64,000 bases of DNA from an uncultured Microbulbifer sp. (GTDB lineage: Bacteria > Pseudomonadota > Gammaproteobacteria > Pseudomonadales > Cellvibrionaceae), in the NCBI RefSeq assembly GCF_947504145.1, contig NZ_CANNGQ010000004.1, positions 186,001 through 250,000 on the forward strand. Reading direction: 5' to 3'. The notes below the pieces were generated by a model that made no database searches, was not told the DNA's origin, and was given only the letters and a program-made list of their open reading frames with translations. Positions 1,831 through 39,354 of the stretch are shown piece by piece. The position numbers were made by a program, and so were the translations under genes. Numbering within the stretch: position 1 is the stretch's first letter; every line of letters begins with the position of its first letter.

Positions 1831-1965
1831 GTCCTGTGGCGGCGAGGCACCGGGTATTCATTTTTGAAACCGAGCTGGGCGCCCCCCTGTTAACCCATCC
1901 CTGGGCGCTGCGGCGCAAACATCCTGTTTGCGACGCTTTCAAAAATGAATCCCCGCCACCTCACC
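1831..1965 (-). repeat. Variable-arm palindromic element, copy A (subfamily 1)
   Basis: Read on the minus strand this has the layout of all six copies in the window. The outer arms 1844-1869 and 1937-1962 pair over about 26 bp with few mismatches. An inner hairpin CGCAAAC-loop-GTTTGCG is at 1914-1932, with loop AGGAT on the minus strand. The second motif CCCAGGGATGGG is at 1894-1905 (minus strand), and the tail CCGCCAC at 1835-1841. This copy has about 15 extra GC-rich bases (roughly 1870-1889) between the second hairpin and the outer arm that other copies lack. It sits between the convergent stops of uxaA and the 65-residue gene. Confidence 0.85.
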
Positions 1966-1999
1966 TTAGCTTCTGAGCAAGAGCTTCGTAAGCAAGCAC

Positions 2000-2197
2000 T
2001 TAGTCGTGCACTTTTGCGGGCGCTTTGCTCAGCAACACTAAAATCAAAGTGGCTAACGGCCCAAAAATAAGGCTCAAAACCCACCAGATTAAACCGCTGC
2101 GGTTTTTGCCCTGGGCCAAACCTGCATTAATCAATGAAAGCGTTCCCCACCCTACCAGCCACTCTCGTGACTGAATCATCACCTGATACTCTTCCAT
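2000..2197 (-). CDS. Small membrane protein of unknown function
   Basis: The 65-residue protein has a short polar start, then a segment QGKNRSGLIWWVLSLIFGPL leading into a strongly hydrophobic run (about residues 36-58). This suggests one or two membrane segments with a positively charged entry. Small inner-membrane proteins with a KNRSxxxW...FGPLATLIL motif are common in bacteria and have no assigned role; that resemblance is from memory of the pattern, not a search. The ATG is preceded by GAGGAAAATTC, a good ribosome site, which argues that the gene is real. It is monocistronic and convergent with uxaA. Confidence 0.7.
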   Translation of the reverse strand: MEEYQVMIQSREWLVGWGTLSLINAGLAQGKNRSGLIWWVLSLIFGPLATLILVLLSKAPAKVHD

Positions 2198-2269
2198 GAA
2201 TTTTCCTCACTGCCTATACAGAGGCACAAATGTAAAAAGTTAAGGCTGCGTACGTGGCTACCACTAAAA

Positions 2270-3559
2270 TTAATTGTCTAACAGGAACCGGGCAATAGTC
2301 CTGAACCCATGGCCTTTAGCCCCCTGCGCCCACTGATCATTGGGTCCCGGGAGGTAAGAGCCGGAAAGATCCATATGCACCCAACCACGCCCGTCATCAC
2401 GCACAAATTTCGCCAGGAAAGCGGCAGCAGTTGACGCACCGGGCGTGCCATCCATACCCACGTTGGCAGTCTCTGCAAAGCCCGAAGGAATCTGCTCCAT
2501 GTGAAATTTCTCCAACGGCAGACGCCAGGCCTTTTCATTTTCAGCTTTCGCCGCACTCAGCACCTTTTCCGCCATGTCATCTTCAAGGCTCAGCACCGAG
2601 TTGTAATCGCGCCCCACCGCCATCTTCGCAGCACCGGTTAACGTCGCCGCATCCAGAATATAGCGGGGATTGTCTTCACTGGCGGCGATCAGGCCATCCG
2701 CCAGTACCAGCCGTCCTTCTGCATCCGTATTCAAAATTTCTGCGGTGACACCATTTTTGTAAGTGATCACATCACCAAGCTTGAATGCATGGCCGGAAAT
2801 CAGGTTTTCTGCACAACACAGATACAGTTTTACGCGCTTGTTCAAGCCGCGCGCAATGGCCAGTGCCAGACCGCCGGCAACCATCGCCGCGCCGCCCATA
2901 TCGGACTTCATATGGGCCATGCCCGCCGAAGGCTTGATACTGTAACCACCGGAATCGAAGGTAATGCCCTTGCCCACCAGACACAGATCCACATCGGCGC
3001 TGTCATCACCGGTAGGGTTATAGTCCAGCTGCAGCATCGCGCCGCCGCGCACACTGCCGCGGCCGACGTTGTGAATCCCCATAAAGCCTTCGTCCAGCAA
3101 TTCATCACCGGACACGATGCGATAGCTCACCGCATCGGGCGCCAGTTTCTGCAGCATGTCTGCAGCACTTTCCGCCAGCGCGCGCGGGAAAACATTTTCC
3201 GGCGTACCGTTGGTGATCTCCCGCACCCACAGACTGGCGGCCTTGCGCGCATCCAGCTCTTTGCGCTCGTCACCCTCGCCAACACCCCATTCCAGGGTGC
3301 TCTTGCGGTTTGGATTGTAGTAGCCGGCCCAGAAGGCCCAGCGGCTTTCCAGATCCCATTGATCGCCGGCAAGGGCAATATTGGTCACCCCCATACCGTC
3401 CAGGCGGCGCGCGGCGCGCTGTACCGCAACCAGGGTGCCGCCGGTAGCTTCGGTGGCGTGAATACAGGCCTCGTGCTCACTGAAACTCAGCAGGGCATTC
3501 TTGCCCCAGTGCTCCGCCGCCGCGGAATTGTCCAGCCGTACCTGCATCGCTGTTGTCAT
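2270..3559 (-). CDS. pepB: M17 leucyl aminopeptidase family protein, PepB-like
   Basis: From the ATG at 3559 the protein is 429 residues, close to E. coli PepB (427), and its N-terminus (MTTAMQVRLD, then RAARRLDGMG and WAFWAGY) follows PepB. A longer frame opens 20 codons upstream, but the internal start has an AAGGTG box and fits the family length. The M17 active-site blocks are present: GKGITFDSGG with the following catalytic lysines at about 195-215, and NTDAEGRLVLADGL at about 277-290 with metal-binding Asp and Glu. These cytosolic hexameric metallopeptidases remove N-terminal residues from peptides in protein turnover. It stands alone and is divergent from the B-box gene. Confidence 0.9.
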   Translation of the reverse strand: MTTAMQVRLDNSAAAEHWGKNALLSFSEHEACIHATEATGGTLVAVQRAARRLDGMGVTNIALAGDQWDLESRWAFWAGYYNPNRKSTLEWGVGEGDERKELDARKAASLWVREITNGTPENVFPRALAESAADMLQKLAPDAVSYRIVSGDELLDEGFMGIHNVGRGSVRGGAMLQLDYNPTGDDSADVDLCLVGKGITFDSGGYSIKPSAGMAHMKSDMGGAAMVAGGLALAIARGLNKRVKLYLCCAENLISGHAFKLGDVITYKNGVTAEILNTDAEGRLVLADGLIAASEDNPRYILDAATLTGAAKMAVGRDYNSVLSLEDDMAEKVLSAAKAENEKAWRLPLEKFHMEQIPSGFAETANVGMDGTPGASTAAAFLAKFVRDDGRGWVHMDLSGSYLPGPNDQWAQGAKGHGFRTIARFLLDN

Positions 3560-3715
3560 TCTGTACACCTTGAAATTGTGATGGTAGGAAAAAGTGCCTG
3601 AGACACAATATTGGGTCATTCTAGCAGGCTACAAGCATCCGTTTGCGCCATGCGGGAAACTGTCGATACACTTCACCGGTTAAAAATAACGACAAAGAAG
3701 CGTGAGGGAATCACC

Positions 3716-5146
3716 ATGGGGACAAACTGCCATTACCACTCGGGAGCGGATGCCATCTGGCAGTGTACCGGCTGCAGCAAGGACTACTGCGGCGACTGTG
3801 TACCCGGCTCGGTGGACAACTACTACCAGTCCACCCCCAAATGCACTCTGTGTAACAAGCGTCTGGAAAATGTCGGCGCCAGCAACAAGGCCAGGCCCTT
3901 CTGGCAGATGGCACCCTTCTACTTCCGCTACGGGATTGCATCCGGCCCCGTTACCGTATCTGCAGTCTGCGCCGTGGCCGCCCTGGCCATGACCGGCCTC
4001 GGCATTCTGTCGATTTTCGTGTTTGTGGCGACCCTCGCCGTGGTAATGCGTTACAACCTGCTGGTGATTGAAAAGCTCGCCAGCGGCCAACTGGAAGCTC
4101 CCAGCTTTGGCGACGCCCAGGACGGCCGCAGTGCAGCGATTTTTGCCAAGGTGATCGGGATGATCCTGGTAGCCGGCGGTGTGGGTATGCTGTTTGCCGG
4201 GCTCGGAGAGAGTGCGGTACAGGTATATTCCATTGCCCTGTCCCTGCTGGCGCCAGCGGCCATGATCGTACTTGCGCTGGAACAGAGTATGCGCGCCGCG
4301 GTAAACCCGCTGAAGCTGCTGCAATTTACCTTGATCATCGGCTGGCCCTACTGGTTGCTTTGGCTCTCCACCAGCGCCGTATCCGCCGCACCTGCTTATT
4401 TGTTGCCTGCGGTGATGGACAAGCTCCCGGTGTGGATGCTGTTGCCGTTGATCGCGTTTGTAACCAGTTATTTCTCCATCGTCACCAGTGCCATGATGGG
4501 CTACATCTGCCTGACCCGGCAGCGCAAGCTGGGTGTGATTGCGCAGGTGGATGACGAGGAATTTCTGGAAGAGCGGGAATTCGAGCGCAAAAAGGCACTG
4601 GCCAATGCGGGAATTTTTCTGCGTGAAGGTCGGCACGATGAAGCGCGCAAGGCGCTGGTGAATGTGTTGCGCCAGCAACCGGACGACATCCCCCTCAACG
4701 AGCGTTATGTGCAGTTGCTACTTGCCACCGATGATAAAAAAGCCCTACGCGAACTGGGCCCACATTTGTTAGAGCGGTTTATAAAACTAAACCACGCGCA
4801 CAAGGCCGCAGAGCTCTACCTGGCCATAACCAAAAGCCAGGGCGCACCGGCAATCGACAAATCGCTACTGCGCCACCAGATTGCGGAAGCGCTCTACCGC
4901 CAACGCCAGTTCAAACCCGCTCTGGCACTGATCAACAACCTGCACAAAGAAGACCCGCACTACACCCGCCTGGATAGCGCCTATCTGTTGCTGGCGAAAA
5001 TCTATATGGATGGATTCAATCGCACCGATAACAGTCGCAAGTTGCTGGCGTTTGTGCAGAAAAAGTATCCGAAAAGCGGTGTGTTGCGAGAGGTGAAACA
5101 GCTGGAAGGGATCCTGGCGGCGGAGCAAAACGCACAGCCAGTTTAA
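3716..5146 (+). CDS. B-box zinc-finger, multi-pass membrane, TPR-tailed protein
   Basis: The start at 3716 is chosen because GTGAGGGA lies 7-14 bases upstream; the upstream extension lacks domain content. The 476-residue product begins with a cysteine/histidine cluster (C5, H8, C17, C20, C25, C28, C43, C46) of B-box or treble-clef type, likely binding zinc in the cytosol. Residues about 60-280 hold five or six hydrophobic segments. A charged linker (EEREFERKK) leads to a helical tail (about 290-476) with TPR-like repeats, for example GIFLREGRHDEARKALVNVL. No enzyme motif is seen. It is convergent with a rhomboid protease whose tail is of the same type. The function is unknown; a membrane scaffold is a guess. 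Confidence 0.75.
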   Translation: MGTNCHYHSGADAIWQCTGCSKDYCGDCVPGSVDNYYQSTPKCTLCNKRLENVGASNKARPFWQMAPFYFRYGIASGPVTVSAVCAVAALAMTGLGILSIFVFVATLAVVMRYNLLVIEKLASGQLEAPSFGDAQDGRSAAIFAKVIGMILVAGGVGMLFAGLGESAVQVYSIALSLLAPAAMIVLALEQSMRAAVNPLKLLQFTLIIGWPYWLLWLSTSAVSAAPAYLLPAVMDKLPVWMLLPLIAFVTSYFSIVTSAMMGYICLTRQRKLGVIAQVDDEEFLEEREFERKKALANAGIFLREGRHDEARKALVNVLRQQPDDIPLNERYVQLLLATDDKKALRELGPHLLERFIKLNHAHKAAELYLAITKSQGAPAIDKSLLRHQIAEALYRQRQFKPALALINNLHKEDPHYTRLDSAYLLLAKIYMDGFNRTDNSRKLLAFVQKKYPKSGVLREVKQLEGILAAEQNAQPV

Positions 5147-5210
5147 TCAAGGGCAGTGGCGGCACCGCTACCGGGTAGAGGCGCCTTCGCACAAAGCTCA
5201 ATGAAATAAA

Positions 5211-6656
5211 CTAAACCACCTCAGGCTGCAGCGCGCGGGCAAAATCCTGCGCTTTGCGCGCGCGCTCTTCATCCCCACAGCGGCGATAGTGCTCTACCAG
5301 ACCGTTGGCCAACCGCGCCATCAGCGGGTGGCGCTGCTCTTTCTGTTGCAGCCGCTGCAGCAGGCGCTCTACCAGTTCCCAGTGTTTTTCCCGCGCTGCG
5401 CGCTGTGCCAGCACCAGACAGGTCCGCGCATTCAACGCCCGCGGCTCGCTGGTGCTTTCCATATAGGTTTCAACGCCGCTGGCCACCGGCGCAAAATCCT
5501 GTTCGGGCGCTTTTGCCAGGGCGAACAGTGCCAGCCAGGCGCGATGATGCGCCTCGCTTTCCGGCGCAAGCCTGCTCAGCTCAATAAACTTGTGGATAAG
5601 TGCCAGCGACTGCGGGTGCTGCCGCTGTGCGCTGGCGGCAGCCTGATTGGCCTCCAGCAATTTTCCGTTATTCTGCAGAGATTCGATCCGCGCCAGCGCC
5701 AGCTGTTCCGGGGTGGGTGGCAGGTCTTCTTCCACCTGGATCTCACGGCTTGGCCGAAACCGTATCAGCGCCATGGTGCCCACGAAGCCCGCCACCAGAC
5801 CGCCAAAATGCGCCCAGTAGGCAATGTTATCGTTGCCGAAGAAATACCCGAACACCTCTTTGCCGAGCCACAACGGCAATACCAGCAACGCCGGCGCAGT
5901 AAATTCTCCAAACGCGAACCCCAGCGTGTAGAAAAACCGCAGGCGACGCACCCCGTACACGGCCACGAACATCCCCATCACCGCGGAGACGGCACCGGAG
6001 GCACCAATCACCGGTATCAGGCTGCCCGCTTCCACCCCCATATGCAGGCCAGCCGCAGCGAGACCACCCAGCAGATACAGGCCGATAAACCAGGCCGCTC
6101 CCAACGCCAGCTCCACCGACAGACCAAACAGCAGCAGGAAGATCATATTGCCCAGCAGGTGCTCCCAGCTGCCGTGCAGAAACATATGACCGAACAAGCC
6201 TTGCAGCGTCGGCTCTGCCGGAGTCAATCCATAGGCAAAGCTGGACAGGCGGTCGCGCAGTTCGCTGAATTGATTGCGCTGATCAAGCCACTGCTGCTCG
6301 CCCTCATCCCGCAACTGCGGCAGCAGCCAGTTGTGAAATTCGTGACTCCACAACAGCTGCTGGTAAATAAATTCTTCCCCGGCGCCCTGGGCCTGGGTGC
6401 GCCACTCAGGTTTTTCCGCGTCCACAAATTCGTAAAAGCGCTGCTCTTCCAGCACCGGCAGTTCACTGGAGAAGTAATATTCTTCCGCCACCTGCCAGCG
6501 CGCCTCATCGCCGCTCTGGTAGAGCACGAACACCAGCAGGTTGATCAGGATCAGGGCAAAACAGACCAGGGGGGGGCGTCGCCAGTCAGGCTTGTTCTGA
6601 ATGGGGATAATCAGCAAGGGCGGACCTGCGGCTCGGTTGGTAGTGCGGGGGATCAC
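5211..6656 (-). CDS. Rhomboid family intramembrane serine protease with TPR-like tail
   Basis: The 481-residue protein is much longer than the six-helix GlpG core. Helix 1 is at about 28-46. A hydrophilic insert of roughly 100 residues (about 48-150) follows, then the rhomboid core: HLLGN at 166-170 (oxyanion His and Asn), GASGA with nucleophile S220, and AHFGG with the dyad H283. All catalytic residues are present, so it should cleave transmembrane helices. After the last helix (RFRPSRE, about residue 305) comes a soluble helical tail to the end, with TPR-like pattern. The start codon is GTG at 6656; a TTG 13 codons downstream is a possible alternative. Substrates are unknown. Confidence 0.85.
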   Translation of the reverse strand: MIPRTTNRAAGPPLLIIPIQNKPDWRRPPLVCFALILINLLVFVLYQSGDEARWQVAEEYYFSSELPVLEEQRFYEFVDAEKPEWRTQAQGAGEEFIYQQLLWSHEFHNWLLPQLRDEGEQQWLDQRNQFSELRDRLSSFAYGLTPAEPTLQGLFGHMFLHGSWEHLLGNMIFLLLFGLSVELALGAAWFIGLYLLGGLAAAGLHMGVEAGSLIPVIGASGAVSAVMGMFVAVYGVRRLRFFYTLGFAFGEFTAPALLVLPLWLGKEVFGYFFGNDNIAYWAHFGGLVAGFVGTMALIRFRPSREIQVEEDLPPTPEQLALARIESLQNNGKLLEANQAAASAQRQHPQSLALIHKFIELSRLAPESEAHHRAWLALFALAKAPEQDFAPVASGVETYMESTSEPRALNARTCLVLAQRAAREKHWELVERLLQRLQQKEQRHPLMARLANGLVEHYRRCGDEERARKAQDFARALQPEVV

Positions 6657-6801
6657 GGCGGGTGATCCGTTCGAGCCATTCAGAATACAGGGGCTGTGAA
6701 ATATGAACAGCCCCGGGCGTGGCAGTTACGTCGAAAATGTGGTGATAAACGTCACAGAATGTCGTTGAGATACTGTGATTCGCTATTGTCCTCAATGGCC
6801 C

Positions 6802-9180
6802 TCAATGACTGGGGGCGCCACCGTCGTCACCACCACCTTCGCTGCCGCTCTCACCCTCCCCGCCAGCATCATCGGGCCAGTCTTCGATGCCGGCCGATCC
6901 GCGGCGCTCATCCTTGGGTGCCGGGGGCTTGCGGGGACCAGAACCCTCACCCTGTGCGGGCAGAGTATCCTGCTCCCCCCAGCTGCGCACGTGCAGGTCT
7001 CGCTGGGGGAAGGGAATCTCGATACGGCGCTCGTTGAATTCATGCAGCAGTTCGATGTTGTACAGCGCGTTGAGATCGCCCAGCGAAGACACCGCGTTGC
7101 TGTTGACCCACACCACCAGTTTGAAATCCAGTGAGCTGTCGCCAAAGCCGGTAAGCCACACCTCGGTTTTGCGCTGCCAGTTGGAAAAGGTGACCGGTAC
7201 CCGTTCTGCAGCAGCCATCGCCGCCTCGCGTACTTCTTCCGGGTCAGTGCCATAGGCGACACCGAAACCGATGTGAATGCGCCGCACCGGGTCTTCCAGG
7301 GTGTGGTTGGTCACCCGGCCAGTGACGAACTCCGAGTTGGGCACCAGGATATCCACATTGTCGCGGGTAGTAATACGGGTGGAGCGCACATTGATATCGC
7401 GTATACGCCCGAACACGCCGGACTCCAGCTCCACCAGATCACCCACCCGCAGGGGCTGCTCAAACAGCAGAATGATGCCGGAAATAAAGTTGGAGAAAAT
7501 GGCCTGCATGCCGAAACCGATACCTACCGAAAGGGCACCGGCGATCAAGGTGAGCTTGGAAGTATCCAGCCCCACCATGGCAAGGAGGATGACGAAGGTA
7601 ATCAGGACGATGCAGTAATTCAACACCCGCCACAGGGTATAGGCGGCCTGTTCGCTGGTGCGGTTACGGCGCACCATGCGGCGCAGAATCCAGTTGAGCA
7701 GCCGCGAGCAGGCCCAGGCGGCAAGTATCACCAGGATCATTTTGGCGATGTCTTTCAGGGTAATCGGCTGCTCACTGACCGCAAACAGCTCGTAGTTGGC
7801 GAGGTTGCGCCAGCCACTGCGCAGCTGCTGAAACTGCAGCACAATCCGGTCGCCCATGGTCTGCCACCATCCCTGCTGGCGCTGGTACACAAACAGCTGG
7901 GCGGTTTCATAGCGCTTCACATCTTCGGTCAGGTCGCGCACCCGGCCGAGGCCACTGGCGACTTTTTCAAACTGTCCCCACCATTTGCGCATGGCCTCGG
8001 AATCTTCCCCCACCCAGGCGACGATCTGGCGCTGGCGTACATTTACCTGCCGCACGAGATTTTCGCGGATGGTTTCCGCGTTTTTCACCAGGTCTTTACT
8101 GAAGGAGAGCTTTTCATCTTCTGTGCCGGCATCCAATACGCTGTTCATGGCCAGCAACAGCTCCTGCTTGCGCAGTTGCAACCGGTTCTCCAGCGCTTCC
8201 ACGCTGTAGATCATCATCTGGATCTGCTGCTCCATTGTGACTGCGGCGTCGGAGCTTTCGAAAATGAGGTTGCGGGAGTCGCTGCGCTCCCGCGCCAGCT
8301 CATCCAGATTGGATTTTTCCTCGGTACGCGCGGCCGCCAGTTTCTCTGCCGCTTCGCTGCTGAATTGCAGGCCCTTCAGCATTCGCGCCAGCTCGCCATC
8401 GGCGTATTTCAGCTCCTCATCCCAGGCCGCCAGCTGCTCGTTGAGCATGCCCTGCTCTTCAAGAATCTGCAGGTGGCTGATCTGTGCCAGGAACACATCC
8501 AAAGTGGCCTTTAGATGCTTGGAGTCAGCGTGGTGCTTTTCACGCAGTGCACCCACAGTTTCCCGCAGCCGGTTGAGCGACAGATCGACACTCTCGTCCA
8601 TCTGCGACTTTTCCAGCTTCAGGCCATCGAAGCGCTGCTTGCCGCGCGTGACTCCGGCATCGGACTCTGCCCACTGCAGTACCGTCGGCTTTTCGGGGAA
8701 GGTGATTGTGGGAAGCACGCTGACTTTTTTCAGCTCCTCGCGCTTCTCCCAGGTTTTACCAATGCCTGCCAGCCGCTGATTGATCGCGGCGACCTCTTCG
8801 GAAAGCTTCGCCTCCTCGGGCAGGGTGGCGCTCCAGTCCTGCCAGGCCTTGTCGACATCCTTCAGCCAAAGGTCACGCTGCTCGAGGGTGACGTCCGGCC
8901 ACTGGGTCCACCAGTCTGCGGCGAGGTTACTGAAATCGGGAACAACCGGAGAGAACTCTTTCGGCTTGGTGGAAGGTAGTTGCGCGATGGCGAAGGAAGG
9001 AATGAGAAAACAGAGCAGGCAGAAAACCGCCAGCAGCACGCGCAAAGACGTGGCCGCAAAGCGCGGGAAATACGGAAAAAGGGCGGTGCCGAAAACTCCC
9101 ATGGCTGAGACTGTCCCTGTACCTCTATCCCTGACCCCGGTTCCCTTGCCCCCAGCCCCTATGAGTTCCATCCGGACCAA
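6802..9180 (-). CDS. Large MscS/MscK-type mechanosensitive ion channel
   Basis: The reading frame gives 792 residues. The true start may be the ATG at 9102, because an N-terminal signal-like segment (LRVLLAVFCLLCFLIPSFAIAQ) follows it. The periplasmic part (about 65-460) is rich in coiled-coil helices (many K/E/L heptads). It is followed by membrane helices and the MscS core: SKLTLIAGALSVGIGFGMQ is the pore-lining helix and the beta domain starts around FEQPLRVGDLVE. The C-terminus (about 730-792) is a low-complexity Gly/Ser/Asp/Pro tail. Such channels release solutes on hypo-osmotic shock. It has fewer predicted helices than MscK, so it is best called a large MscS family member. Confidence 0.85.
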   Translation of the reverse strand: MVRMELIGAGGKGTGVRDRGTGTVSAMGVFGTALFPYFPRFAATSLRVLLAVFCLLCFLIPSFAIAQLPSTKPKEFSPVVPDFSNLAADWWTQWPDVTLEQRDLWLKDVDKAWQDWSATLPEEAKLSEEVAAINQRLAGIGKTWEKREELKKVSVLPTITFPEKPTVLQWAESDAGVTRGKQRFDGLKLEKSQMDESVDLSLNRLRETVGALREKHHADSKHLKATLDVFLAQISHLQILEEQGMLNEQLAAWDEELKYADGELARMLKGLQFSSEAAEKLAAARTEEKSNLDELARERSDSRNLIFESSDAAVTMEQQIQMMIYSVEALENRLQLRKQELLLAMNSVLDAGTEDEKLSFSKDLVKNAETIRENLVRQVNVRQRQIVAWVGEDSEAMRKWWGQFEKVASGLGRVRDLTEDVKRYETAQLFVYQRQQGWWQTMGDRIVLQFQQLRSGWRNLANYELFAVSEQPITLKDIAKMILVILAAWACSRLLNWILRRMVRRNRTSEQAAYTLWRVLNYCIVLITFVILLAMVGLDTSKLTLIAGALSVGIGFGMQAIFSNFISGIILLFEQPLRVGDLVELESGVFGRIRDINVRSTRITTRDNVDILVPNSEFVTGRVTNHTLEDPVRRIHIGFGVAYGTDPEEVREAAMAAAERVPVTFSNWQRKTEVWLTGFGDSSLDFKLVVWVNSNAVSSLGDLNALYNIELLHEFNERRIEIPFPQRDLHVRSWGEQDTLPAQGEGSGPRKPPAPKDERRGSAGIEDWPDDAGGEGESGSEGGGDDGGAPSH

Positions 9181-9298
9181 TACCCAGTATCAATGTCCAG
9201 TACCGATACTCACCACCAATACTGCACGAAAACAATCGTTTCAGTGCCCTGTGCGCGGGGACTACATCTGACTCAGTGTAGATGAGAAATTCAGGGCC

Positions 9299-10129: not shown

Positions 10130-10201
10130 GTGCTACCTCAATACGGCACATTCAACACTACAGCGCACCGAAACCGGCACCCTGCAATCCCCACCCGAAT
10201 T

Positions 10202-10227: not shown

Positions 10228-10257
10228 TAAAAAGAAGCGTAAAAATTAAAGCGACAC

Positions 10258-11798: not shown

Positions 11799-11858
11799 GA
11801 TGTTCTCCGATTTTTAAGAATTAGAGTCTTTCTAACGTAGTAAAAATTTCGATGCGAA

Positions 11859-11980
11859 GGCAAAGTGCCGGGGATCTGTTTTCAGAAGCGTCGCAAACAG
11901 GATGTTTGCGCCGCAACGCCCAGGGATGGGTTCACAGCGGTTCTGAAAACAGATACCCGGTGCTTTGCCGCCACAAAGCC
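11859..11980 (+). repeat. Variable-arm palindromic element, copy B (subfamily 1)
   Basis: The outer arms 11859-11887 and 11941-11969 pair over about 29 bp. The inner hairpin CGCAAAC / GTTTGCG (11892-11898 with 11904-11910) has loop AGGAT. The second hairpin motif CCCAGGGATGGG is at 11920-11931. The tail CCGCCACAAAGCC (11968-11980) is shared with copy F. It fills the gap between the end of gabD and the start of the transaminase gene, starting 30 bp after the gabD stop. Confidence 0.9.
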
Positions 11981-12010
11981 AATTAGAAGGTTCGCCACAA
12001 GCAACGAAGC

Positions 12011-21680: not shown

Positions 21681-21705
21681 TACAGCGCATAAAAGCCAGA
21701 TGAGT

Positions 21706-21830
21706 AGGTGGCGATAGCGGGTACGGCCTTCTGAGACCTTCAAAAACAGGATGTTTTTGCAGAGCCCCCATGGATGGGTTCACGGCGTGTCTCAGAAGGC
21801 CGTACCCGCTAGCGGCGCCGCCACCAAACC
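21706..21830 (+). repeat. Variable-arm palindromic element, copy C (subfamily 2)
   Basis: Perfect 22-bp outer arms lie at 21716-21737 and 21789-21810. The inner hairpin CAAAAAC / GTTTTTG (21741-21747 with 21753-21759) has loop AGGAT. The second motif is CCCATGGATGGG (21767-21778), and GGGTTCACGGCGTG follows. The tail CCGCCACCAAACC ends at 21830. It starts 26 bp after the hydrolase stop and lies upstream of the M1 aminopeptidase gene. Confidence 0.9.
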
Positions 21831-28857: not shown

Positions 28858-28908
28858 TTGTTGTGAGTGAAAAATCATCCTGTGAAAATGAATTCTGTGT
28901 GGCCAGTC

Positions 28909-31316: not shown

Positions 31317-31324
31317 CCACCCAA

Positions 31325-31867: not shown

Positions 31868-31983
31868 AATAGTCTCCTTAATTGCCGCTGACGGCGCCAT
31901 TATCAGTGAGGATAGCGGGCAAGTTACCGCAACCACCTATCGATGCAAGTTATAATCCGGCGCTTTCCGCAAACCGAGCCCTC

Positions 31984-33015
31984 ATGAGCAAACGCAAACT
32001 CAACCGCCGCCAGCAGTGGCGTATCGCCAAAATCCAGGAGGAGCGGGAGGCCCGCGCGCGCAAGCGTGAGGAAAACCTCGAGCAGGCCGCGGAAATCGGC
32101 GACCTGGGGGCAGAGCAGACCGGCCTGGTCATCGCCAACTATGGCACCCAGGTCCTCGTCGAAAGCGTATCCGACAGCCGGTTACGACAGCGCTGCCACG
32201 TGCGCGCCAATATCGAAACCCTGGTAACCGGCGACACCGTGGCCTGGAATCCCGCTACCGGTGAGTCCACTGGCGGCCTCGGCGTGGTCGGCGCTCGCCT
32301 GCCCCGTCACTCGGAACTGCAGCGCCCGGACCGCTACGGCGATATGAAAACCGTGGCCGCGAATATTGACCGCATTCTGATCGTCATCGCACCCTTCCCC
32401 GAGCCGTTCGCCAACGCCATTGACCGCTATCTGGTGGCCGCGGAAACCACCGGTATCCAGCCGCTGCTGCTACTCAACAAAATCGACCTGATTGACGACA
32501 GCAATCGCGAAGAACTTGAAGAACTATTGGCGCCGTATCCGGATCTCGGCTATCCGGTACTGAAGTTATCCACCAAGACCGGGGAAGGCCTCGACGGGCT
32601 GCTCAAAACGCTCGCCGAAGGCACTAGCGTCTTTGTCGGCCAGTCCGGCGTCGGCAAATCCTCCCTGATCAACGGCCTGCTTCCGGGCACCGATGCCCGT
32701 ACCGGCGCCCTGTCGGAAGCCACCGGCAAAGGCACCCACACCACGACCGCCGCGGAACTGTTTCACCTGCCCAGCGGCGGCGATCTGATAGACTCCCCGG
32801 GCATCCGCGAGTTCGGCATCTGGCATATGAGCGAGCAGGCACTGCTGGAAGGCTACGTCGAATTCCGCCCGTTTATCGGCTACTGCCGCTTCCGCGACTG
32901 CCGCCACCAGAGCGAACCCGGTTGTGCCATTCAGGGCGCCCTGGAGTGCGGCGACATCAGCCAGCGGCGCATGGACAGCTTTCTACATTTGCGCAACAGC
33001 CTGGAAAACGACTGA
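31984..33015 (+). CDS. rsgA: Small ribosomal subunit biogenesis GTPase RsgA
   Basis: The 343-residue protein is a circularly permuted GTPase. NKIDLIDD (G4) comes before GQSGVGKSSLI (G1, about residues 219-229), then the SPG of LIDSPGIREFG. A lysine/arginine-rich N-terminus is followed by an OB-fold domain. The C-terminal zinc site is in CRFRDCRHQSEPGC (C-x4-C-x-H-x5-C). RsgA checks the decoding centre in late 30S assembly. The start ATG at 31984 fits the family N-terminus (MSKRKLNRRQQ). It heads the unit rsgA-rhodanese-psd-MFS. Confidence 0.96.
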   Translation: MSKRKLNRRQQWRIAKIQEEREARARKREENLEQAAEIGDLGAEQTGLVIANYGTQVLVESVSDSRLRQRCHVRANIETLVTGDTVAWNPATGESTGGLGVVGARLPRHSELQRPDRYGDMKTVAANIDRILIVIAPFPEPFANAIDRYLVAAETTGIQPLLLLNKIDLIDDSNREELEELLAPYPDLGYPVLKLSTKTGEGLDGLLKTLAEGTSVFVGQSGVGKSSLINGLLPGTDARTGALSEATGKGTHTTTAAELFHLPSGGDLIDSPGIREFGIWHMSEQALLEGYVEFRPFIGYCRFRDCRHQSEPGCAIQGALECGDISQRRMDSFLHLRNSLEND

Positions 33016-33048
33016 GCAAACCAAAGGCCACTCAACAAGGAACCCCAC

Positions 33049-33855
33049 GTGAGCGATGTACCCCTGATCCTCGAACCGGAACAACTGGCACCACTGCTGG
33101 AGCACGAAGAAATCCGCGTCGTCGATTTAAGCGCGCCGGCCAACTACCAGGCCGGACACATCCCCGGCGCCCTCGGCCTCCCCTTCCAGGCCCTCATGGC
33201 CGGCACACCTCCGGCCCCGGGTAAACTGCCCTCCGTCGAGCGCCTCACCCAGGTCATGCGCGCCATCGGCCTCACCCCCGACACCCACATCGTCGCCTGC
33301 GACGACGAAGGCGGCGGCTGGGCCGCGCGCCTGCTGTGGACCCTCGAAGTGATTGGCCACAAAAAATACAGCTACCTGAACGGCGGTATGATCGCCTGGA
33401 AAAACGCCGGTCTACCGCTTACCAACGAAGACGTATCCGTCACCCCCAGCAGTATCGATATTCAGATTGCCAACGATGCGCCAATGATCGACGCGGAACA
33501 AATCCAACAGCGCCTGACTCAAAACGACCTGCAAATCTGGGACGCCCGCTCACCACAGGAGCACTCCGGTGAACGGGTACTGGCAATGAAAGGCGGGCAC
33601 ATTCCCGGCGCGATCAATTGTGAGTGGACACAGCTGATGGATCCTCAACGGGATCTGCGGATTCGCAAAGATGCGAAAGAATTTCTCGCCACACTGGGGA
33701 TTGATGGGAAAAAAGAAATCGCGACCCACTGCCAGAGTCACCATCGATCGGCATTTACGTGGTTGGTGGGGAAATCTCTCGATTTTCCGATCAAGGCCTA
33801 CCCGGGCTCTTGGAGCGAATGGGGCAACCTGCCGGATACGCCAGTGGAGAATTAA
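33049..33855 (+). CDS. Tandem-rhodanese sulfurtransferase
   Basis: The 268-residue protein has two rhodanese domains, about 8-130 and 150-268. The active one is the second, with CQSHHRSAF at about 229-237 holding the persulfide Cys. In the first domain the loop reads CDDEGGGWA, which may or may not be active. It starts with GTG at 33049 after AAGGA. Single-subunit thiosulfate or 3-mercaptopyruvate sulfurtransferases of this length are encoded next to rsgA and psd in related gammaproteobacteria. It moves sulfane sulfur to cyanide or thiols. Confidence 0.87.
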   Translation: MSDVPLILEPEQLAPLLEHEEIRVVDLSAPANYQAGHIPGALGLPFQALMAGTPPAPGKLPSVERLTQVMRAIGLTPDTHIVACDDEGGGWAARLLWTLEVIGHKKYSYLNGGMIAWKNAGLPLTNEDVSVTPSSIDIQIANDAPMIDAEQIQQRLTQNDLQIWDARSPQEHSGERVLAMKGGHIPGAINCEWTQLMDPQRDLRIRKDAKEFLATLGIDGKKEIATHCQSHHRSAFTWLVGKSLDFPIKAYPGSWSEWGNLPDTPVEN

Positions 33856-33958
33856 GCTTCTTGCTATCGCTCACTGGATTCTCGCCTTCGCGGGTATGAC
33901 GATGACTGTCGGTCTGAGCCTTCGATCTCGCTAACGAAGAACAAAAACTTAAATCGCA

Positions 33959-34078
33959 GGTCAGGTGGCGGGGATTCGTTTTCGAAAGCGTCGCAAACAG
34001 GATGTTTGCGCCGCAGCGCCCAGGGATGGGTTCACAGCGGTTTCGAAAACGAATCCCCGGCGCCTGACCGCCACAGAA
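33959..34078 (+). repeat. Variable-arm palindromic element, copy D (subfamily 1)
   Basis: The outer arms 33959-33987 and 34041-34069 pair at 27 of 29 positions. The inner hairpin CGCAAAC / GTTTGCG (33992-33998 with 34004-34010) has loop AGGAT. The second motif CCCAGGGATGGG is at 34019-34030, and the tail CCGCCACAG at 34068-34076. The arm contains GATTCGTTTTCGAAA, close to GATTCATTTTTGAAA of copy A, and both are paired. It sits between the rhodanese gene and psd, 103 bp after the rhodanese stop. Confidence 0.9.
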
Positions 34079-34106
34079 CTACAACCAACGGGACCACAAA
34101 ACCCCA

Positions 34107-34958
34107 ATGCACCCGAAACTGTTTATCTTCCTGCAATACATCACCCCCCAGCACCTACTCTCCCGCGCCGCTGGATGGCTCGCCGAAACGCGTATCGGCG
34201 GCATCAAAAATCCATTCACCAAATGGTTCGTGGAAAAATACCAAGTCGACATGAGTGAGGCGCTTGAGGAAGACTACACCGCCTATACCTGCTTCAACGA
34301 CTTCTTCACCCGCGCCCTCAAAGACGGCGCCCGCCCCATCGTCGAAGGCACAGGCACCATCGCCGGCTGCGCCGACGGCGCCATCAGCCAACTGGGTGAA
34401 ATCCACAACGGCCGAATCTTCCAGGCCAAAGGCCAGGACTACAGCCTGCTCGAACTGGTGGGCGGCGATCCAGAAGTCGCCTCCCAATTCACCGGTGGTA
34501 AATTCGCCACCGTCTACCTGTCACCCAAAGACTACCACCGCGTACACATGCCGCTCGACGGCGTACTGCAGCGCATGATCTATGTGCCCGGCGAACTGTT
34601 TTCCGTAAACACCACCACCGCTGAAAATGTCCCGCGCCTGTTCGCCCGCAACGAGCGCCTCGTGTGCATCTTCGACACCGCCGCCGGCCCCATGGCCATG
34701 ATCCTCGTTGGTGCCATGATCGTCGCCGCCATCGAAACCGTCTGGGCCGGACAGGTGGCGCCCATCAAACGTCAGATCCAAACCACCCGTTACGACGAGC
34801 AAAAACCTATCGCACTGAAAAAAGGTGAAGAGATGGGCCGCTTCAAGCTCGGCTCTACAGTGGTACTGCTGTTTGGTGCCGACAAGGTAAATTGGCTGGA
34901 AGAATTGGCTGCGGAAACACCCGTTAAAATGGGTGAGCACTTCGGGGATCTCGCTTAA
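34107..34958 (+). CDS. psd: Phosphatidylserine decarboxylase proenzyme
   Basis: The 283-residue protein is a class I PSD proenzyme. The self-cleavage motif LGST is in [12 protein letters not shown] at about 248-259; cutting before its Ser makes the pyruvoyl cofactor. [10 protein letters not shown] near 148-157 holds the catalytic His and GAMIVAAI is conserved. It turns phosphatidylserine into phosphatidylethanolamine at the inner membrane. Its ribosome site is weak. It follows rsgA and the rhodanese gene, but copy D intervenes, and the MFS gene starts 5 bp after its stop. Confidence 0.95.
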
Positions 34959-34963
34959 CCAAA

Positions 34964-36190
34964 ATGCCAGCAGTCCCCGCATTTATCCGCAGCAACCCCA
35001 AGCTAGCATTCTTCGCACTGGTCGCGGTCGCCGCCTCCGGCTTTGGTCAGACATTTTTCATCGCCATTTTTGGCGGCGCCCTGCGCGAAGAATTCCACCT
35101 CAGCAACAGCTGGTATGGCGCCAGCTACAGCGCAGCAACATTACTGTCGGCGTTCGTATTGTTAAGCGCGGGCACACTGATCGATCGCTGGCCACTAAAA
35201 CGCGTGGCGATACTCGGTGTCTTGTTACTCAGTGCCGGCTGTATCACCCTCGCCAGCGCACACAGCGCCTGGATGCTTCTGCCCGGGTTTTTCTTGCTGC
35301 GCTTCGCCGGGCAGGGGTTTATGACCCACATGGGAATGACCACGGCCGGACGCTATTTCACAGCCAATCGCGGAAAAGTCATCGCGCTCGCCGCACTGGG
35401 CTTCCCCATCGCCGAGGCACTACTGCCTACCGGCGGCTCCCTGATGATTGCTGGCAGTGGTTGGCGCAGTGTCTGGCTGGCTTCCGCAGCGGTGTTAATC
35501 GTCGCAGTGTTACCGACTCTGATATGGCTGGCCGGCGATACCGGCAAACACGATGGGCAAAGCAGCACCGAAAATACCACCAGTAAAAGTGACTACACCC
35601 GCGCTGAGGTGCTGAAAGACCCGGGGTTCTACTGCCTGTTGCCCGCCGCGCTGATGACGCCCTTTGTGGTTACCGCCATCCTGTTTCACCAGGCCGCGAT
35701 CGCCGACGAACGCGGCTGGTCAATGGCGGTGCTCGCCGGCGCATTTGGCAGTTATGCCGCAGGTCACCTGCTTGCACTATTATTTGCCGGGGGACAGGTG
35801 GACCGTTACGGCGCCCAGCGCAGCCTGCCGTTGGCACTGATCCCGATGATCGGCGCGCTGGTACTGCTGGCGCTGTGTAATGCCAGCTGGGTTCCCTATG
35901 TGTATCTGGCGCTGATCGGTATTGCCCAGGCGGGAACCGGCACCGCCGGTAGCGCGCTTTGGCCCGAGCGCTACGGCAGCAGTCACCTCGGCGCTATCCG
36001 CTCCGTATCACAGGCAGCTATGGTGTTCTCCACCGCGGCATCACCGCTGCTGCTGGGCTTTCTTCTCGATCGGGGATGGGATGTTCAGGGAGTGGGGCTA
36101 CTGTTCGCGGGACTTATTCTGGCGGCCTGCCTTCTTACCTTGCTGGCACCGATGACCGCAAAGCAGAACCCACAGGAAAGCGCCGCCTGA
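34964..36190 (+). CDS. MFS transporter
   Basis: The 408-residue protein has twelve hydrophobic helices. The typical loop GTLIDRWPLKRVAI at about 68-82 matches the MFS GxxxDRxxxR signature, and an internal loop of charged residues (TGKHDGQSSTENTTSKS) divides the halves. It resembles oxalate/formate antiporter-type carriers, but the substrate cannot be told. Its ATG lies 5 bp past the psd stop, so it is co-transcribed and probably coupled with psd. It is convergent with the HD-GYP gene. Confidence 0.8.
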   Translation: MPAVPAFIRSNPKLAFFALVAVAASGFGQTFFIAIFGGALREEFHLSNSWYGASYSAATLLSAFVLLSAGTLIDRWPLKRVAILGVLLLSAGCITLASAHSAWMLLPGFFLLRFAGQGFMTHMGMTTAGRYFTANRGKVIALAALGFPIAEALLPTGGSLMIAGSGWRSVWLASAAVLIVAVLPTLIWLAGDTGKHDGQSSTENTTSKSDYTRAEVLKDPGFYCLLPAALMTPFVVTAILFHQAAIADERGWSMAVLAGAFGSYAAGHLLALLFAGGQVDRYGAQRSLPLALIPMIGALVLLALCNASWVPYVYLALIGIAQAGTGTAGSALWPERYGSSHLGAIRSVSQAAMVFSTAASPLLLGFLLDRGWDVQGVGLLFAGLILAACLLTLLAPMTAKQNPQESAA

Positions 36191-36221
36191 AGTTGCGGAA
36201 ACCGAGAAAAAATAACGGGAA

Positions 36222-37598
36222 TTAACGGCTGGGAATAAAGCGCGCGATAAATGCCGGGAGGCGCTGCTCGTACAGGTACTGGTCGCGCACCTTGGCCACA
36301 TCAATCTGCGGATAGCGGCAGGGATCCAGATCCTGGGTAATGGTAATCAGGCCCATTTCTGCGAGCAGTTTTTTACCCTTGTTGACCACCGCCTGCTTGC
36401 GATCGTCATCCGCAGCCATATCAAACAGCCGCGGCTTTTCCAGAAGCTGCTTATTCCGATCTGTCACCAGCATGACTTTCGGCTTTAACCGGCGTTTGTG
36501 ACTCTGCTCAACCACCACCGCAATTTCACCGGTGGAAAGTTCGACCTGGGTGCCGGTAGGGTAAAGACCGATGGACTGGATAAACTCCACCACCAGCTGC
36601 TCCTGAAACGCGCAATTGCGCAGATCATAAAGCTGCCCGACTGCCCGGGAAGGGGGCAATGGGAATTCCGCACCGCGGGGATTGGTGGCCTCATCGTAAA
36701 AAGTCACAATACCGCACATACGCGCGAGCACCGGGATCTGGCCGCCGCGTAAACCGCGGGGATAGCCGCTTCCGTCGTACTGCTCTTTGTGACACTGCAC
36801 AATGTTGAGTATCTGCTGATCGACATTCGGATCGACCGACAGCAGTTTCACGCTGTAATCGACGAACTTCCGATACTCCAGCTCTTCCCGCGGCTCACGC
36901 TTCTCGGCTTTTAGCACTGTATCGGCAAGATACAGCTTGCCCACATCTTTCAGCAGCGTGGCAATACCCAGTTGAACCAGCTCCTGACGACGCAGGCCAA
37001 TATGCCGCCCGAACACCACCGCCCATACGCTGGCGCGCACCGAGTGGCTATACGTGTGTTCGTCCTTTTCCCGCACCCGCGCCAGCCAGGAAAAGGCATC
37101 GGGACTGCGCAGAACGCTGTCGACCATCTGCGTGACGGTCTGATTCACCTGTGCGGTGGGTAGCGGCCGATCCGTTTTCAGCTGGACCATGACCTCGTGC
37201 ATGCCCTGAACAATACGATCGTGCAACTGCCTCGCCTTGGCCGCCTCTTTGCGAGCAGGCTCCGGGGGGGCGTAGCTATCGTGCTTGATCTGGACCGGTT
37301 TACAGCTGATGGCAACGGGGATTCGGCGCGGGGTGCCCTTGGCGGGCGCGACACTGGCAGAGGCCTCACTGGCGGCGCGTGTCAGCTTGCGCAGCTTGAC
37401 GCCCACATCGCCTACGGTCTTGACCACATCCACGTAGACGTAACGGCAGTATTTCTGCAGCTGGCGGATTTCTTCCAAGTCGCGGATATAGAAACCCTGC
37501 AGAGCAAACGGGGTACGCGTCCACGGGCGATCCAGACGAGACACAAACATGCCTCGTTGCAGGTCTTCAACAAATACTTTCGCCTGTTGGATTGCCAC
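36222..37598 (-). CDS. Degenerate HD-GYP domain protein with N-terminal DUF3391
   Basis: The frame opens at 37727, but homologous architecture starts at VAIQQAKVFVEDLQRGMFV, so GTG 37598 is preferred (458 residues). DUF3391 (about 1-130) comes first, with FVSRLDRPW and TPFALQGF. The HD-GYP domain (about 175-370) keeps HTYSHSVRAS, YDGSGYPRGL and TFYDEA. The core HD pair is changed: LLKDVGK has K for H, the helix His after it reads FVDYSV, and the HHE site is CHKEQ. Several metal ligands are lost, so c-di-GMP hydrolysis is doubtful. It may bind nucleotide or act as an adaptor. Confidence 0.8.
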   Translation of the reverse strand: MAIQQAKVFVEDLQRGMFVSRLDRPWTRTPFALQGFYIRDLEEIRQLQKYCRYVYVDVVKTVGDVGVKLRKLTRAASEASASVAPAKGTPRRIPVAISCKPVQIKHDSYAPPEPARKEAAKARQLHDRIVQGMHEVMVQLKTDRPLPTAQVNQTVTQMVDSVLRSPDAFSWLARVREKDEHTYSHSVRASVWAVVFGRHIGLRRQELVQLGIATLLKDVGKLYLADTVLKAEKREPREELEYRKFVDYSVKLLSVDPNVDQQILNIVQCHKEQYDGSGYPRGLRGGQIPVLARMCGIVTFYDEATNPRGAEFPLPPSRAVGQLYDLRNCAFQEQLVVEFIQSIGLYPTGTQVELSTGEIAVVVEQSHKRRLKPKVMLVTDRNKQLLEKPRLFDMAADDDRKQAVVNKGKKLLAEMGLITITQDLDPCRYPQIDVAKVRDQYLYEQRLPAFIARFIPSR

Positions 37599-37688
37599 TT
37601 GATCGCTGCCGCTAATGGTTGCTGCGTAATTTTTGTTCTGGGTATAGCTGTGACCAGCCGGGATACGGCATAGCTGGCACACACTAAT

Positions 37689-37717
37689 GCCCCGCTTTGG
37701 GAAGCCCAAAGCGGGGC
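37689..37717 (-). terminator. Perfect 13-bp hairpin between hemE and the HD-GYP gene
   Basis: GCCCCGCTTTGGG (37689-37701) and CCCAAAGCGGGGC (37705-37717) pair without mismatch around a 3-base loop. It is 100 bp past the hemE stop on the minus strand. No T run follows, so it may be a transcript end stabiliser or a rho-assisted stop. It also lies in the leader of the HD-GYP gene. Confidence 0.55.
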
Positions 37718-37816
37718 GAATTGTCACACAAGTCTACTCGCTAGTACGCATTATAATTGTGACTTGCGTCACGGAAAAGTGGTCAGTGACTGCTCACCCA
37801 CCAAATTCATTCCGGG

Positions 37817-38896
37817 TTATTGGTGGTATTGAGGAGACAGTTCCACCACTGCATCAAACATGGCACCGGCGTGGGCCGGATCTACCTTGGGGGTAACCCC
37901 GTGGCCCAGGTTAAAGATATGGCCGGTCCCACGGCCAAAGCCCGCCAGAACCGAGGCCACTTCCTCGCGAATTCGCTCCGGGCTCGCCAGCAGAATCGAC
38001 GGGTCCATATTGCCCTGCAAGGTCACTCTGTCACCCACTCGCGCACGTGCCTGCGCAATATCCGTGGTCCAGTCCAGCCCCAGTGCGGTAGCACCGGCAT
38101 CCGCCATCGCCTCCAGCCACTGCCCACCACCTTTGGTGAACAGGATCACCGGCACCTGGCGGCCGTCATGTTCTTTAATCAACCCCTGCACGATGCGCGC
38201 CATGTAGTTCAGAGAGAACTCTTTATAGGCCGCGTGGCTCAAGGCCCCACCCCATGTATCAAAGATCTGCACCGTTTGTGCCCCTGCGCGGATCTGCGCA
38301 TTCAGGTAATCAATCACCGAGTCCGCCAGGACGGTCAGCAACTGGTGCATGTCTTCAGGACGGTTGTAGAGCATCTCCTTGGCGCGGGCAAAATCCCGGC
38401 TGGAGCCGCCTTCGATCATGTAGGTGGCCAGGGTCCAGGGGCTGCCGGAAAAGCCGATCAGCGGCACGCGACCGTTCAGCTCACGGCGGATGGTGGTCAC
38501 CGCGTCCGTCACGTAGCTGAGATCTTTCGCAGTATTCACGACTTCGAGCGCCGCGATATCGGCACTGGTGCGCACGGGCTTTTTGAATTTGGGCCCTTCG
38601 CCTTCCTCAAAGTACAACCCGAGGCCCATGGCGTCGGGAATGGTGAGGATATCGGAAAACAGGATGGCGGCATCCAGGGGGTAGCGTTCCAGCGGTTGCA
38701 GGGTCACTTCGCAGGCCAGTTCGGTGTTGCGGCACAGATCCATAAAGGTACCGGCTTTGGCACGAGTGGCGCGGTATTCGGGCAGGTAGCGGCCGGCCTG
38801 ACGCATCATCCACATGGGTGTGCGGTCGACGGGCTGGCGCAGCAGGGCGCGGAGGAAACGGTCGTTTTGGAGGGGGGCGAACTGGGTATCGGACAT
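37817..38896 (-). CDS. hemE: Uroporphyrinogen decarboxylase
   Basis: From the ATG at 38896 the protein has 359 residues, normal for HemE. The signature [13 protein letters not shown] at about 30-42 is intact, and the substrate-binding Asp lies in [31 protein letters not shown] and the late [13 protein letters not shown] blocks are as expected. It removes four carboxyl groups from uroporphyrinogen III to give coproporphyrinogen III in heme biosynthesis. The longer frame that opens at 39022 reads into repeat copy E and is rejected. It is transcribed alone toward the HD-GYP gene. Confidence 0.97.
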
Positions 38897-39030
38897 GATC
38901 ACAACGGCTGGGTAAATGGCCGGCCATTGTACTCGCGGGGTCTCGTTTAGGACAGAGACTCGCCTGACTCGGGATTTATGCGGGTGATTGGGGTGGGCTA
39001 TTGGAGGTTTTGGGGTTCGCACTCAGGAGG

Positions 39031-39155
39031 AGCTGGGCGGCTTTGCTACCGGGTGGTTGTATGCGGGACACGCCGTAAACCCCTCCCTGGGGGCTCTGCA
39101 CCGCCATCCCTGGCGGAGAAGGTCCCGCATACAACCACCCGGTATCAAAGCCTTC
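39031..39155 (-). repeat. Variable-arm palindromic element, copy E (subfamily 2, most divergent)
   Basis: The outer arms 39039-39069 and 39122-39152 pair at 30 of 31 positions, the longest stem of the set. On the minus strand the first inner hairpin reads CCGCC-AGGGAT-GGCGG (39101-39116), a third stem type with compensatory changes. The second is CCCCC-AGGGA-GGGG (39079-39093 region). The GACCTTC and ACGGCGTGTC edges of subfamily 2 are kept. It lies upstream of hemE (135 bp from its ATG) and faces copy F. Confidence 0.88.
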
Positions 39156-39235
39156 GCACCGACTCACGTGCAATTTAAAATCACGGAGAAACCCGTTCGT
39201 GGCCCGAACCGAGCTCTGAAGTTCGATGAGAACGT

Positions 39236-39354
39236 GCTGGTGCCGGTAAAGGTTTGCCAGACCTTCAAAAACAGGATGTTTTTGCAGAGCCCCCAGGGAT
39301 GGGTCCACGGCGTGTCTGGCAAACCTTTACCGGTAGCAGTACCGCCACAAAGCC
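39236..39354 (+). repeat. Variable-arm palindromic element, copy F (subfamily 2)
   Basis: Perfect 20-bp outer arms lie at 39243-39262 and 39314-39333, with weaker pairing outward. The inner hairpin CAAAAAC / GTTTTTG (39266-39272 with 39278-39284) has loop AGGAT. The second motif CCCAGGGATGGG is at 39292-39303, and the tail CCGCCACAAAGCC at 39342-39354 equals that of copy B. It begins 38 bp beyond the gltD stop. The 80-bp spacer to copy E (39156-39235) holds no gene. Confidence 0.9.

Follow-up and report, generated by a model that had tools for sequence, protein, structure and literature searches.

The 64,000-nucleotide stretch of DNA analysed here (the window), from an uncultured Microbulbifer sp. 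(contig NZ_CANNGQ010000004.1, positions 186,001 to 250,000), carries six copies, elements A to F, of a palindromic repeat, and these belong to a real, structured and strand-polar repeat family. The fold of one strand is maintained, the copies lie close behind stop codons in either orientation, hairpin blocks are exchanged and the locus stays occupied. The elements are probably non-autonomous miniature repeats of the Gammaproteobacteria, homologous to the YPAL/RU-2 repeats and mobilised in trans, in which the strand fold is kept while hairpins are exchanged and which form a 3' hairpin when read through.

Structure of the elements

All six elements that a first-pass annotation of the window had proposed were found in their places:

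Element A, 1834..1972, minus strand, arms 1841-1872 / 1934-1965, 112.9 bits; sits where two gene ends converge and has a 14-nt variant block, GGGGGCGCCCAGCT, adjoining hairpin 2
Element B, 11852..11976, plus strand, arms 11859-11890 / 11938-11969, 127.9 bits; core of type 1 (CGCAAACAGGATGTTTGCG, CCCAGGGATGGG), antisense relative to both neighbouring genes
Element C, 21700..21826, plus strand, arms 21707-21737 / 21789-21819, 135.8 bits; core of type 2 (CAAAAACAGGATGTTTTTG, CCCATGGATGGG), sense to both neighbours, starting 19 nt past the stop codon of the upstream gene
Element D, 33952..34076, plus strand, arms 33959-33990 / 34038-34069, 131.2 bits; sense orientation
Element E, 39032..39159, minus strand, arms 39039-39069 / 39122-39152, 126.1 bits; hairpin 1 is CCGCCAGGGATGGCGG, sense to both neighbouring genes
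Element F, 39226..39350, plus strand, arms 39234-39262 / 39314-39342, 123.0 bits; antisense to both neighbours, forming with E a divergent (-,+) pair

On the strand that shows GGA in the hairpin loops, an element runs from GCGAAGG through an outer and an inner arm to hairpin 1 and a linker that ends in GAGC or AGCG, followed by hairpin 2, TTCACGGCG(TG) or TTCACAGCG, the inner arm, the outer arm and CCGCCAC. The stems of hairpin 1 come from a small set (for instance CAAAAACAGGATGTTTTTG, CGCAAACAGGATGTTTGCG, CGGCGACAGGGACGTCGCCG, CCGCCATGGATGGCGG and TCCGCGAGAGGGACCTCGCGGA), and hairpin 2 is chiefly CCCA(G/T)GGATGGG or TACA(G/T)GGATGTA. GGA is found in both hairpin loops in five of the six window elements; element A has it in hairpin 1 only, and its hairpin-2 region folds differently because of the extra 14-nt block. 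The arms had been described as perfectly paired in C and F and at 30 of 31 positions in E. Over whole arms the complementarity is 90% in C, 97% in E and 90% in F, so that C and F are imperfect over their full length, although the innermost 23 bp of C match, as do 24 of 26 inner positions of F.

The copies were treated in three sets, those of the own genome, a set called genus, which includes three loci from other families (L076, L078 and L084), and a set called named, in which none of the loci L169-L206 is from Microbulbifer. The named copies were found through hairpin 2 and its linker alone, and hairpin 1 and the arms were thus not selected by the search. Strand and context counts use copies with an arm score of at least 14 (111 in the named set). 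The loop of hairpin 1 contains GGA in 246 of the 256 scored copies (56/56 own, 90/92 genus and 100/108 named, three of the 111 named copies being excluded as lacking the hairpin). Five named copies have TCC at the loop, and four have no GGA upstream, three of which (L120, L142 and L202) carry a nested insert.

Such nested inserts, ending in GGCATT(T/C)CCGCCATCC(A/T)TGGCGGTCA or similar, lie inside hairpin 1 or 2 of some elements of Microbulbifer, Halomonas ventosae, Vreelandella sedimenti and a metagenome-assembled genome (MAG) of the Porticoccaceae (L054:727-905 and L057:890-1069 in the own genome; L120 near 2179; L127 near 5498; L142 near 772; L202 near 6418), and may be a further small repeat with these hairpins as its target. 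Another type of insert (GTTGATTCGC...CACCCTGCGGGCGCCTCCGGCGTCC...) separates the left arm from hairpin 1 in L239 (element E of G018) and L244 (element F of G322), which are different loci in two species. A coreless copy consisting of arms only, L060:733-796, is a near-perfect palindrome centred on TTTTCGAAAA and is explicable by a deletion between the TTTCGAAA repeats of both arms. At G066:C1:94445-95373 five core motifs follow each other on one strand at a regular spacing of 227-229 nt, forming a tandem array of elements.

Maintenance of the fold on one strand

When each element was folded by itself as RNA, the free energies lay between -66 and -83 kcal/mol and the z-scores between -5.2 and -8.9; none of 200 shuffles folded as well. 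Together the six give an RNAalifold consensus of 41 pairs, of which 21 show one change or more on both sides. Orthologous copies of E and F in congeners were aligned in nine rows for E (G018, with an internal insert, was left out) and eight rows for F (G018, G322 and G321 were left out for inserts or a variant block). In the E orthologues 96.4% of the cells are paired, eight pairs are changed on both sides and the covariation is 0.341, against 0.150 in shuffled and at most 0.088 in slid alignments; the corresponding figures for F are 97.0%, ten pairs and 0.302, against 0.126 and at most 0.052. For paired cells and covariation, none of 500 shuffles was as high for either element. The F copy of G018 has its left arm from one haplotype and its right arm from another, with the result that the arms mismatch; this mosaic shows recombination within elements and cautions that part of the paired change is whole-block exchange rather than stepwise compensation.

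The mismatches in the arms carry the strand assignment. If the fold is preserved on one strand, G-T mismatches are tolerated and A-C mismatches are not, whereas processes at the level of the duplex treat both alike. Among the E and F orthologues we counted 14 G-T, no A-C and 17 other mismatches, 15 of the latter belonging to one fixed position. In the 101 named copies outside Microbulbifer there are 102 G-T against 34 A-C mismatches (p 4e-9), and 48 against 12 in the inner arms. A count by genus or MAG gives 32 groups with more G-T, five with more A-C and 17 ties, so that 32 of the 37 untied groups favour G-T. The admission score, match minus mismatch, is the same for both kinds of mismatch, and with an arm cut-off of 11, which admits 124 of the 148 named motif hits, the counts are 133 G-T and 38 A-C. 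Antisense copies are G-T rich as well (39 against 14 in the named and 39 against 9 in the genus set). In the own genome whole arms give 74 G-T and 16 A-C mismatches, a ratio inflated by outer-arm positions fixed in the genus, and the inner arms alone give 7 and 4 (summed over contexts); as these inner-arm counts are small, it is the orthologue and named sets that support the strand claim. The preference for wobble over A-C mismatches indicates that the fold of one strand is kept, antisense copies included.

The paired changes in the inner arms of E and F, the covariation and the G-T bias together bear out the first-pass annotation in that the fold, and not the arm sequence, is conserved. Copies with unpaired arms, which it had named as evidence to the contrary, are few: L059 has 20 of 30 aligned cells in Watson-Crick pairs, the mosaic F of G018 has mismatched arms, and among the motif hits 2 of 53 in the genus set and 24 of 148 in the named set had an arm score below 11, some of these resembling chance hits of the short motif.

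Abundance, distribution and genomic position

A covariance model (R1) built from the six window elements, as had been proposed, was searched against the own genome of 4.36 Mb and gave 82 matches, corresponding to at least 64 distinct places above 43 bits after merging both strands, 60 of them above 84 bits. The family thus extends far beyond chance, and the number of own places is a lower bound since 150 of 1196 first-look candidates were scored. At E ≤0.001, with the best 91 candidates scored in several genomes, R1 matched 25 of 38 genomes including the own; it found no match in the congeners G003, G004 and G007. Of 293 genomes of the order, 85 contain a pattern of the 19-nt core; they represent 41 of 118 genera, and up to 203 places were counted in one genome (G286). 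In a draw from the phylum it was found in 12 of 160 genomes, 11 of 40 within the class and 1 of 120 in other classes, and the reversed-pattern control gave 0 throughout. Copies with the 14-nt block, which breaks the core motif, are under-represented in our collection of 259 elements. Among the matches listed are Microbulbifer, Halomonas, Billgrantia, Marinobacter, Alcanivorax, Saccharospirillum, Stenotrophomonas, Xanthomonas, Rheinheimera, Shewanella, Zobellella, Alteromonas, Pectobacterium, Erwinia and others. The family is patchy yet widespread in the Gammaproteobacteria.

Genes were called by codon usage trained on the window, and the Microbulbifer codon model was reused for other genera, where the calls are rougher. 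Own copies and 3' gene ends are separated by a median of 36 nt, random positions in the same gaps giving 55 nt (2.5-97.5% range 40-72; n=53), and only one of 54 element gaps is divergent, against 6 of 26 across the window. Of 56 own copies scored for orientation, 29 are sense, 19 antisense, 5 convergent, 1 divergent and 2 other; in the wider list of 64 the numbers are 33, 21, 7, 1 and 2. All sets together have 104 sense and 71 antisense copies (p 0.015, uncorrected for related copies), with no single set significant.

Close pairs in the genome G167 are chiefly divergent (-,+) and 201-243 bp apart. Its 100 listed places include six pairs with less than 400 bp between the members, five of which are of this kind; the window pair E/F is alike. 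The five are:

G167, C1:1219413-1219657, 2808500-2808735, 2971922-2972141, 3243138-3243369 and 3559093-3559354, each (-,+)

Orthologous sites and block exchange

At the E/F site 20 congeners were compared, of 47 matched, and presence was judged by reading the sequences. Nine of the 20 have E and ten have F; F is antisense to both neighbours, yet its site is filled this often. In G020 an internal deletion has removed E, in G013 a single different element is found, and nine congeners have no element there. At site D, seven of ten congeners have the full element, and the remaining three have an arm remnant or a remnant-like stretch.

Identities were compared over ten E and ten F copies, the own included and the F copy of G321 (variant block) missing, with a gapped aligner for which the random baseline is 0.64-0.70. 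The flanks, at 0.71-0.75, are near this baseline, and the hairpin-2 core reaches 0.94 and 0.89. Inner-arm identity is 0.69 in E and 0.87 in F, and the F arms are thus much less diverged. At sites D, E and F the hairpins are replaced as whole blocks from a small set. One rare block, GGGGGCGCC(T/C)AGC, is found in 5 of the 64 own copies and at several other congener sites, which speaks for exchange between copies.

Search for a mobiliser and carriers

No transposase could be linked to the elements as far as this was tested, in line with the first-pass annotation. The Y1_Tnp transposase domain was searched for in the own genome and 39 others; 39 genomes gave 108 matches, 36 of them having at least one. 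Within about 1.5 kb of the 30 loci opened (of 108) there was no core motif, with up to 2 substitutions allowed, so that strongly altered cores would escape. Three genomes that do contain elements, G012, G022 and G275, gave no Y1_Tnp match. The sole match in the own genome is a protein of 255 amino acids (L032:3467-4234; G000:C2:328505) with an HUH region that, by eye, is changed; its gene lies between PP2C phosphatase-like and type VI secretion system component-like genes, and no element was found in the 7 kb around it. Many congeners have weak Y1_Tnp matches of about the same length, as if this were a domesticated transposase.

Among the neighbours of the 111 named copies, the 13 listed clusters of at least three proteins look like housekeeping genes, judged by reading and not by family search. 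As regards carriers, a phage origin was considered and rejected, as 2.9 million viral contigs contained just 5 stretches of the KATT and 3 of the GGTT subtype. A plasmid search found element F on no plasmid. A Pectobacterium-like copy occurs in 15 plasmid records (14 predicted conjugative) of Klebsiella, Citrobacter, Escherichia and Shigella; 5 of 5426 E. coli genomes also have it. The two regions that were opened (L306:3001-3109 and L307:2028-2136) show this copy next to a gene for an iron-containing alcohol dehydrogenase.

Discussion

We consider the mobile-repeat explanation given at the outset the probable one. A long imperfect stem of about 20-31 bp, free to drift, would present two short GGA-loop hairpins joined by conserved linkers; an enzyme supplied in trans would recognise the single-stranded fold and spread the copies, and settled copies would be retained by selection or re-templated through recombination with other copies. 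Copies that are read through may give the neighbouring mRNA a stable 3' hairpin, as reported for YPAL.

Several observations weigh against this explanation. The comparison of the same gene gaps in relatives, as had been suggested, showed that presence varies among congeners but gave no clean empty site at E/F or D; where the full element is missing, the site shows a deletion, a remnant or a gap that cannot be aligned. Near the 111 named copies there is no recurrent mobiliser-like gene. Shared flanking words of 7 nt or more, taken as a sign of target-site duplication, are found in 0.143 of own copies against 0.135 in mispaired controls and in 0.130 against 0.097 in the genus set, no clear excess; in the named set the values are 0.245 and 0.091, an excess without a consistent boundary. 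The chromosome of G167 shows no orientation bias along its length (57/100, p 0.19; 100 exact-match places, of 146 allowing one mismatch, were used in this replichore test). On the side of the fold, the number of E pairs changed on both sides was matched by 68 of 500 shuffles and the number of further pair types by 432 (E) and 57 (F) of 500, and kinship among aligned rows can lift such values above shuffles without any structure. A role as 3' hairpin of an mRNA does not, by itself, predict the strand preference seen in antisense copies.

An alternative reading of the GGA hairpins is that the element is a docking RNA for CsrA/RsmA, in which the two hairpins bind one CsrA dimer, the stem merely presents them, and the copies serve as sponges or as CsrA-responsive 3' ends. 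Two GGA hairpins per RNA is an arrangement that a CsrA dimer can bridge, and the consensus from systematic evolution of ligands by exponential enrichment (SELEX) for CsrA is RUACARGGAUGU. Close to this consensus, 92 of 102 named copies have an A two positions before the GGA of hairpin 1 and 92 of 102 a T or C after it, GGA is kept in 100 of 108 named copies even though the search used hairpin 2 alone, the stems are variable (the named set has 52 different stem ends), and the own genome has one CsrA match. However, the A is found in only 28 of 56 own copies, and in at least half of the own and genus copies either the N between A and GGA is missing or the closing pairs are different. Antisense copies keep GGA equally (by a looser test 19/19 own, 26/27 genus and 25/25 named), where the transcript of the neighbour would show TCC; if CsrA is involved, the relevant RNA would thus not be simply the mRNA of the neighbour. 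The excess of sense over antisense copies, 104 to 71 and among copies that are not independent, is small for such a role, and the Rfam family Ysr224 (see below) models the strand with TCC loops. A search with RsmZ found 0 of 48 above the cut-off and five weak matches, which says little. A docking RNA is in our opinion possible though unlikely. It is tempting to combine the two ideas and to speculate that mobile repeats carry ready-made CsrA/RsmA docking sites, each jump planting a strand-specific two-hairpin GGA module behind a gene and the copies forming a putative CsrA buffer, but we rate this a little lower still. If true, tens to about 200 copies per genome would buffer CsrA and could wire neighbouring genes to the Csr system, with arms that drift freely and hairpins that pass from copy to copy.

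Pairing of the arms could also be upheld by mutation, through intra-strand template switching (quasi-palindrome correction) with no selection on the fold. The changed pairs in the inner arms of E and F differ on both sides with nearly no one-sided intermediates, as block conversion would give. Such correction is strand-symmetric, yet G-T exceeds A-C (14 to 0 and 102 to 34), and as a full account we find template switching improbable, while it may contribute alongside selection. It is hard to believe that the elements are repetitive extragenic palindromes (REP) moved by a Y1 transposase of the REP-associated tyrosine transposase (RAYT) kind. They are dispersed palindromes and the close pairs in G167 are mostly divergent, but none of the 30 Y1_Tnp loci opened (of 108) has a core nearby, three genomes have elements and no Y1_Tnp match, and the single own match has a changed HUH region and no element around it. 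The first-pass annotation had thought of a fold-recognised mobile unit, REP/attC-like in principle, or a 3' RNA fold; the dispersed noncoding repeat near 3' gene ends is supported, and the REP/RAYT model is not. Equally implausible are ordinary intrinsic terminators that are alike in looks only. Strong hairpins near stop codons in both orientations would suit them, but the core with its conserved linkers is common to many genera, TTTT follows the right arm within 15 nt in only 1/56 own, 0/92 genus and 3/111 named copies, and AAAA precedes the left arm within 15 nt in 2/56, 12/92 and 8/111.

With trans-mobilised YPAL-type repeats as the probable explanation, a repeat known from Yersinia becomes a gammaproteobacterial family with a strand-specific fold signature, and the mobiliser of such repeats becomes a question for comparative genomics over many genera. 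Orthologous series like those of E and F allow loss, exchange and compensatory change to be tracked site by site. The GGA loops raise the cheaply testable question of whether sites for a global RNA regulator can be disseminated on a mobile repeat.

Relation to known systems

The first-pass annotation named no relative and missed YPAL/RU-2. De Gregorio and co-workers reportedly described in 2006 that YPAL lies behind stop codons and that transcripts carrying it are present at higher levels; such proximity to stop codons is also seen here (median 36 nt against 55 at random). The RU-2 sequence as printed in PMC2759123 matches 206 of the 259 elements, 49 of them above 40 bits and the best at 78 bits, whereas the enterobacterial repetitive intergenic consensus (ERIC, or RU-1) reached at best 22.6 bits and shuffled RU-2 at most 26.8 bits (19 of 20 shuffles gave any hit). 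The printed RU-2 has the same two hairpins and linker, and in the folds of RU-2 and of the six elements a long internal inverted repeat encloses the two small hairpins. Shared features are thus the GGA-looped hairpin, the stretch GAGCCTACATGGATGTATTTACGGCG and the long enclosing stem; both are also mostly intergenic, not A+T-rich and provided with internal inverted repeats. According to PMC2229807, YPAL is about 168 bp long (167-168), has internal inverted repeats and no TA ends, makes target duplications of 3-26 bp at targets with dyad symmetry, and is located in Yersinia and Erwinia carotovora. Two further papers give 2-144 matches across Yersinia species and 3 in E. coli (PMC2847712), and a conserved stem-loop with an RNAz score of 1.00 (PMC2267715). 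The elements described here differ in their many other genera, Microbulbifer included, in unrelated arms and other hairpin stems, and in having no demonstrable target duplication. In the portions of the literature on YPAL and on CsrA that were accessible, nothing places YPAL beyond Yersinia, Erwinia and E. coli or links it to CsrA, and papers without these words would be missed.

In Rfam 15 no window element reached the gathering score of any family, Ysr224 included. The Pectobacterium member L165, alone among 18 named loci in cmscan, matches Ysr224 (RF02770, Yersinia small RNA 224) over all 107 model positions on the complement of the GGA strand, scoring 73.3 bits where 70 is the gathering score; Ysr224 thus models the other strand, with TCC loops, and a fold other than that of our elements. 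CsrB/RsmZ-type sponge RNAs have several GGA-loop hairpins, whereas the elements have two within a long stem and occur in tens of dispersed copies. ERIC is likewise a palindromic miniature repeat of enterobacteria (127 bp), but it has no sequence relation to the 259 elements and its printed consensus lacks the pair of GGA hairpins. GTAG REPs with their RAYT are likewise high-copy palindromes, often in inverted pairs, whereas here no linked Y1 transposase was found at the 30 loci opened, of 108. CGTC REPs are palindromic repeats without a known transposase as well, but are far shorter (stems of 8-9 bp) and chiefly alphaproteobacterial (PMC3733652). Given the RU-2 homology of its core, the family is best filed as YPAL-type, as a distant variant of a miniature element already known and not as a kind of its own.

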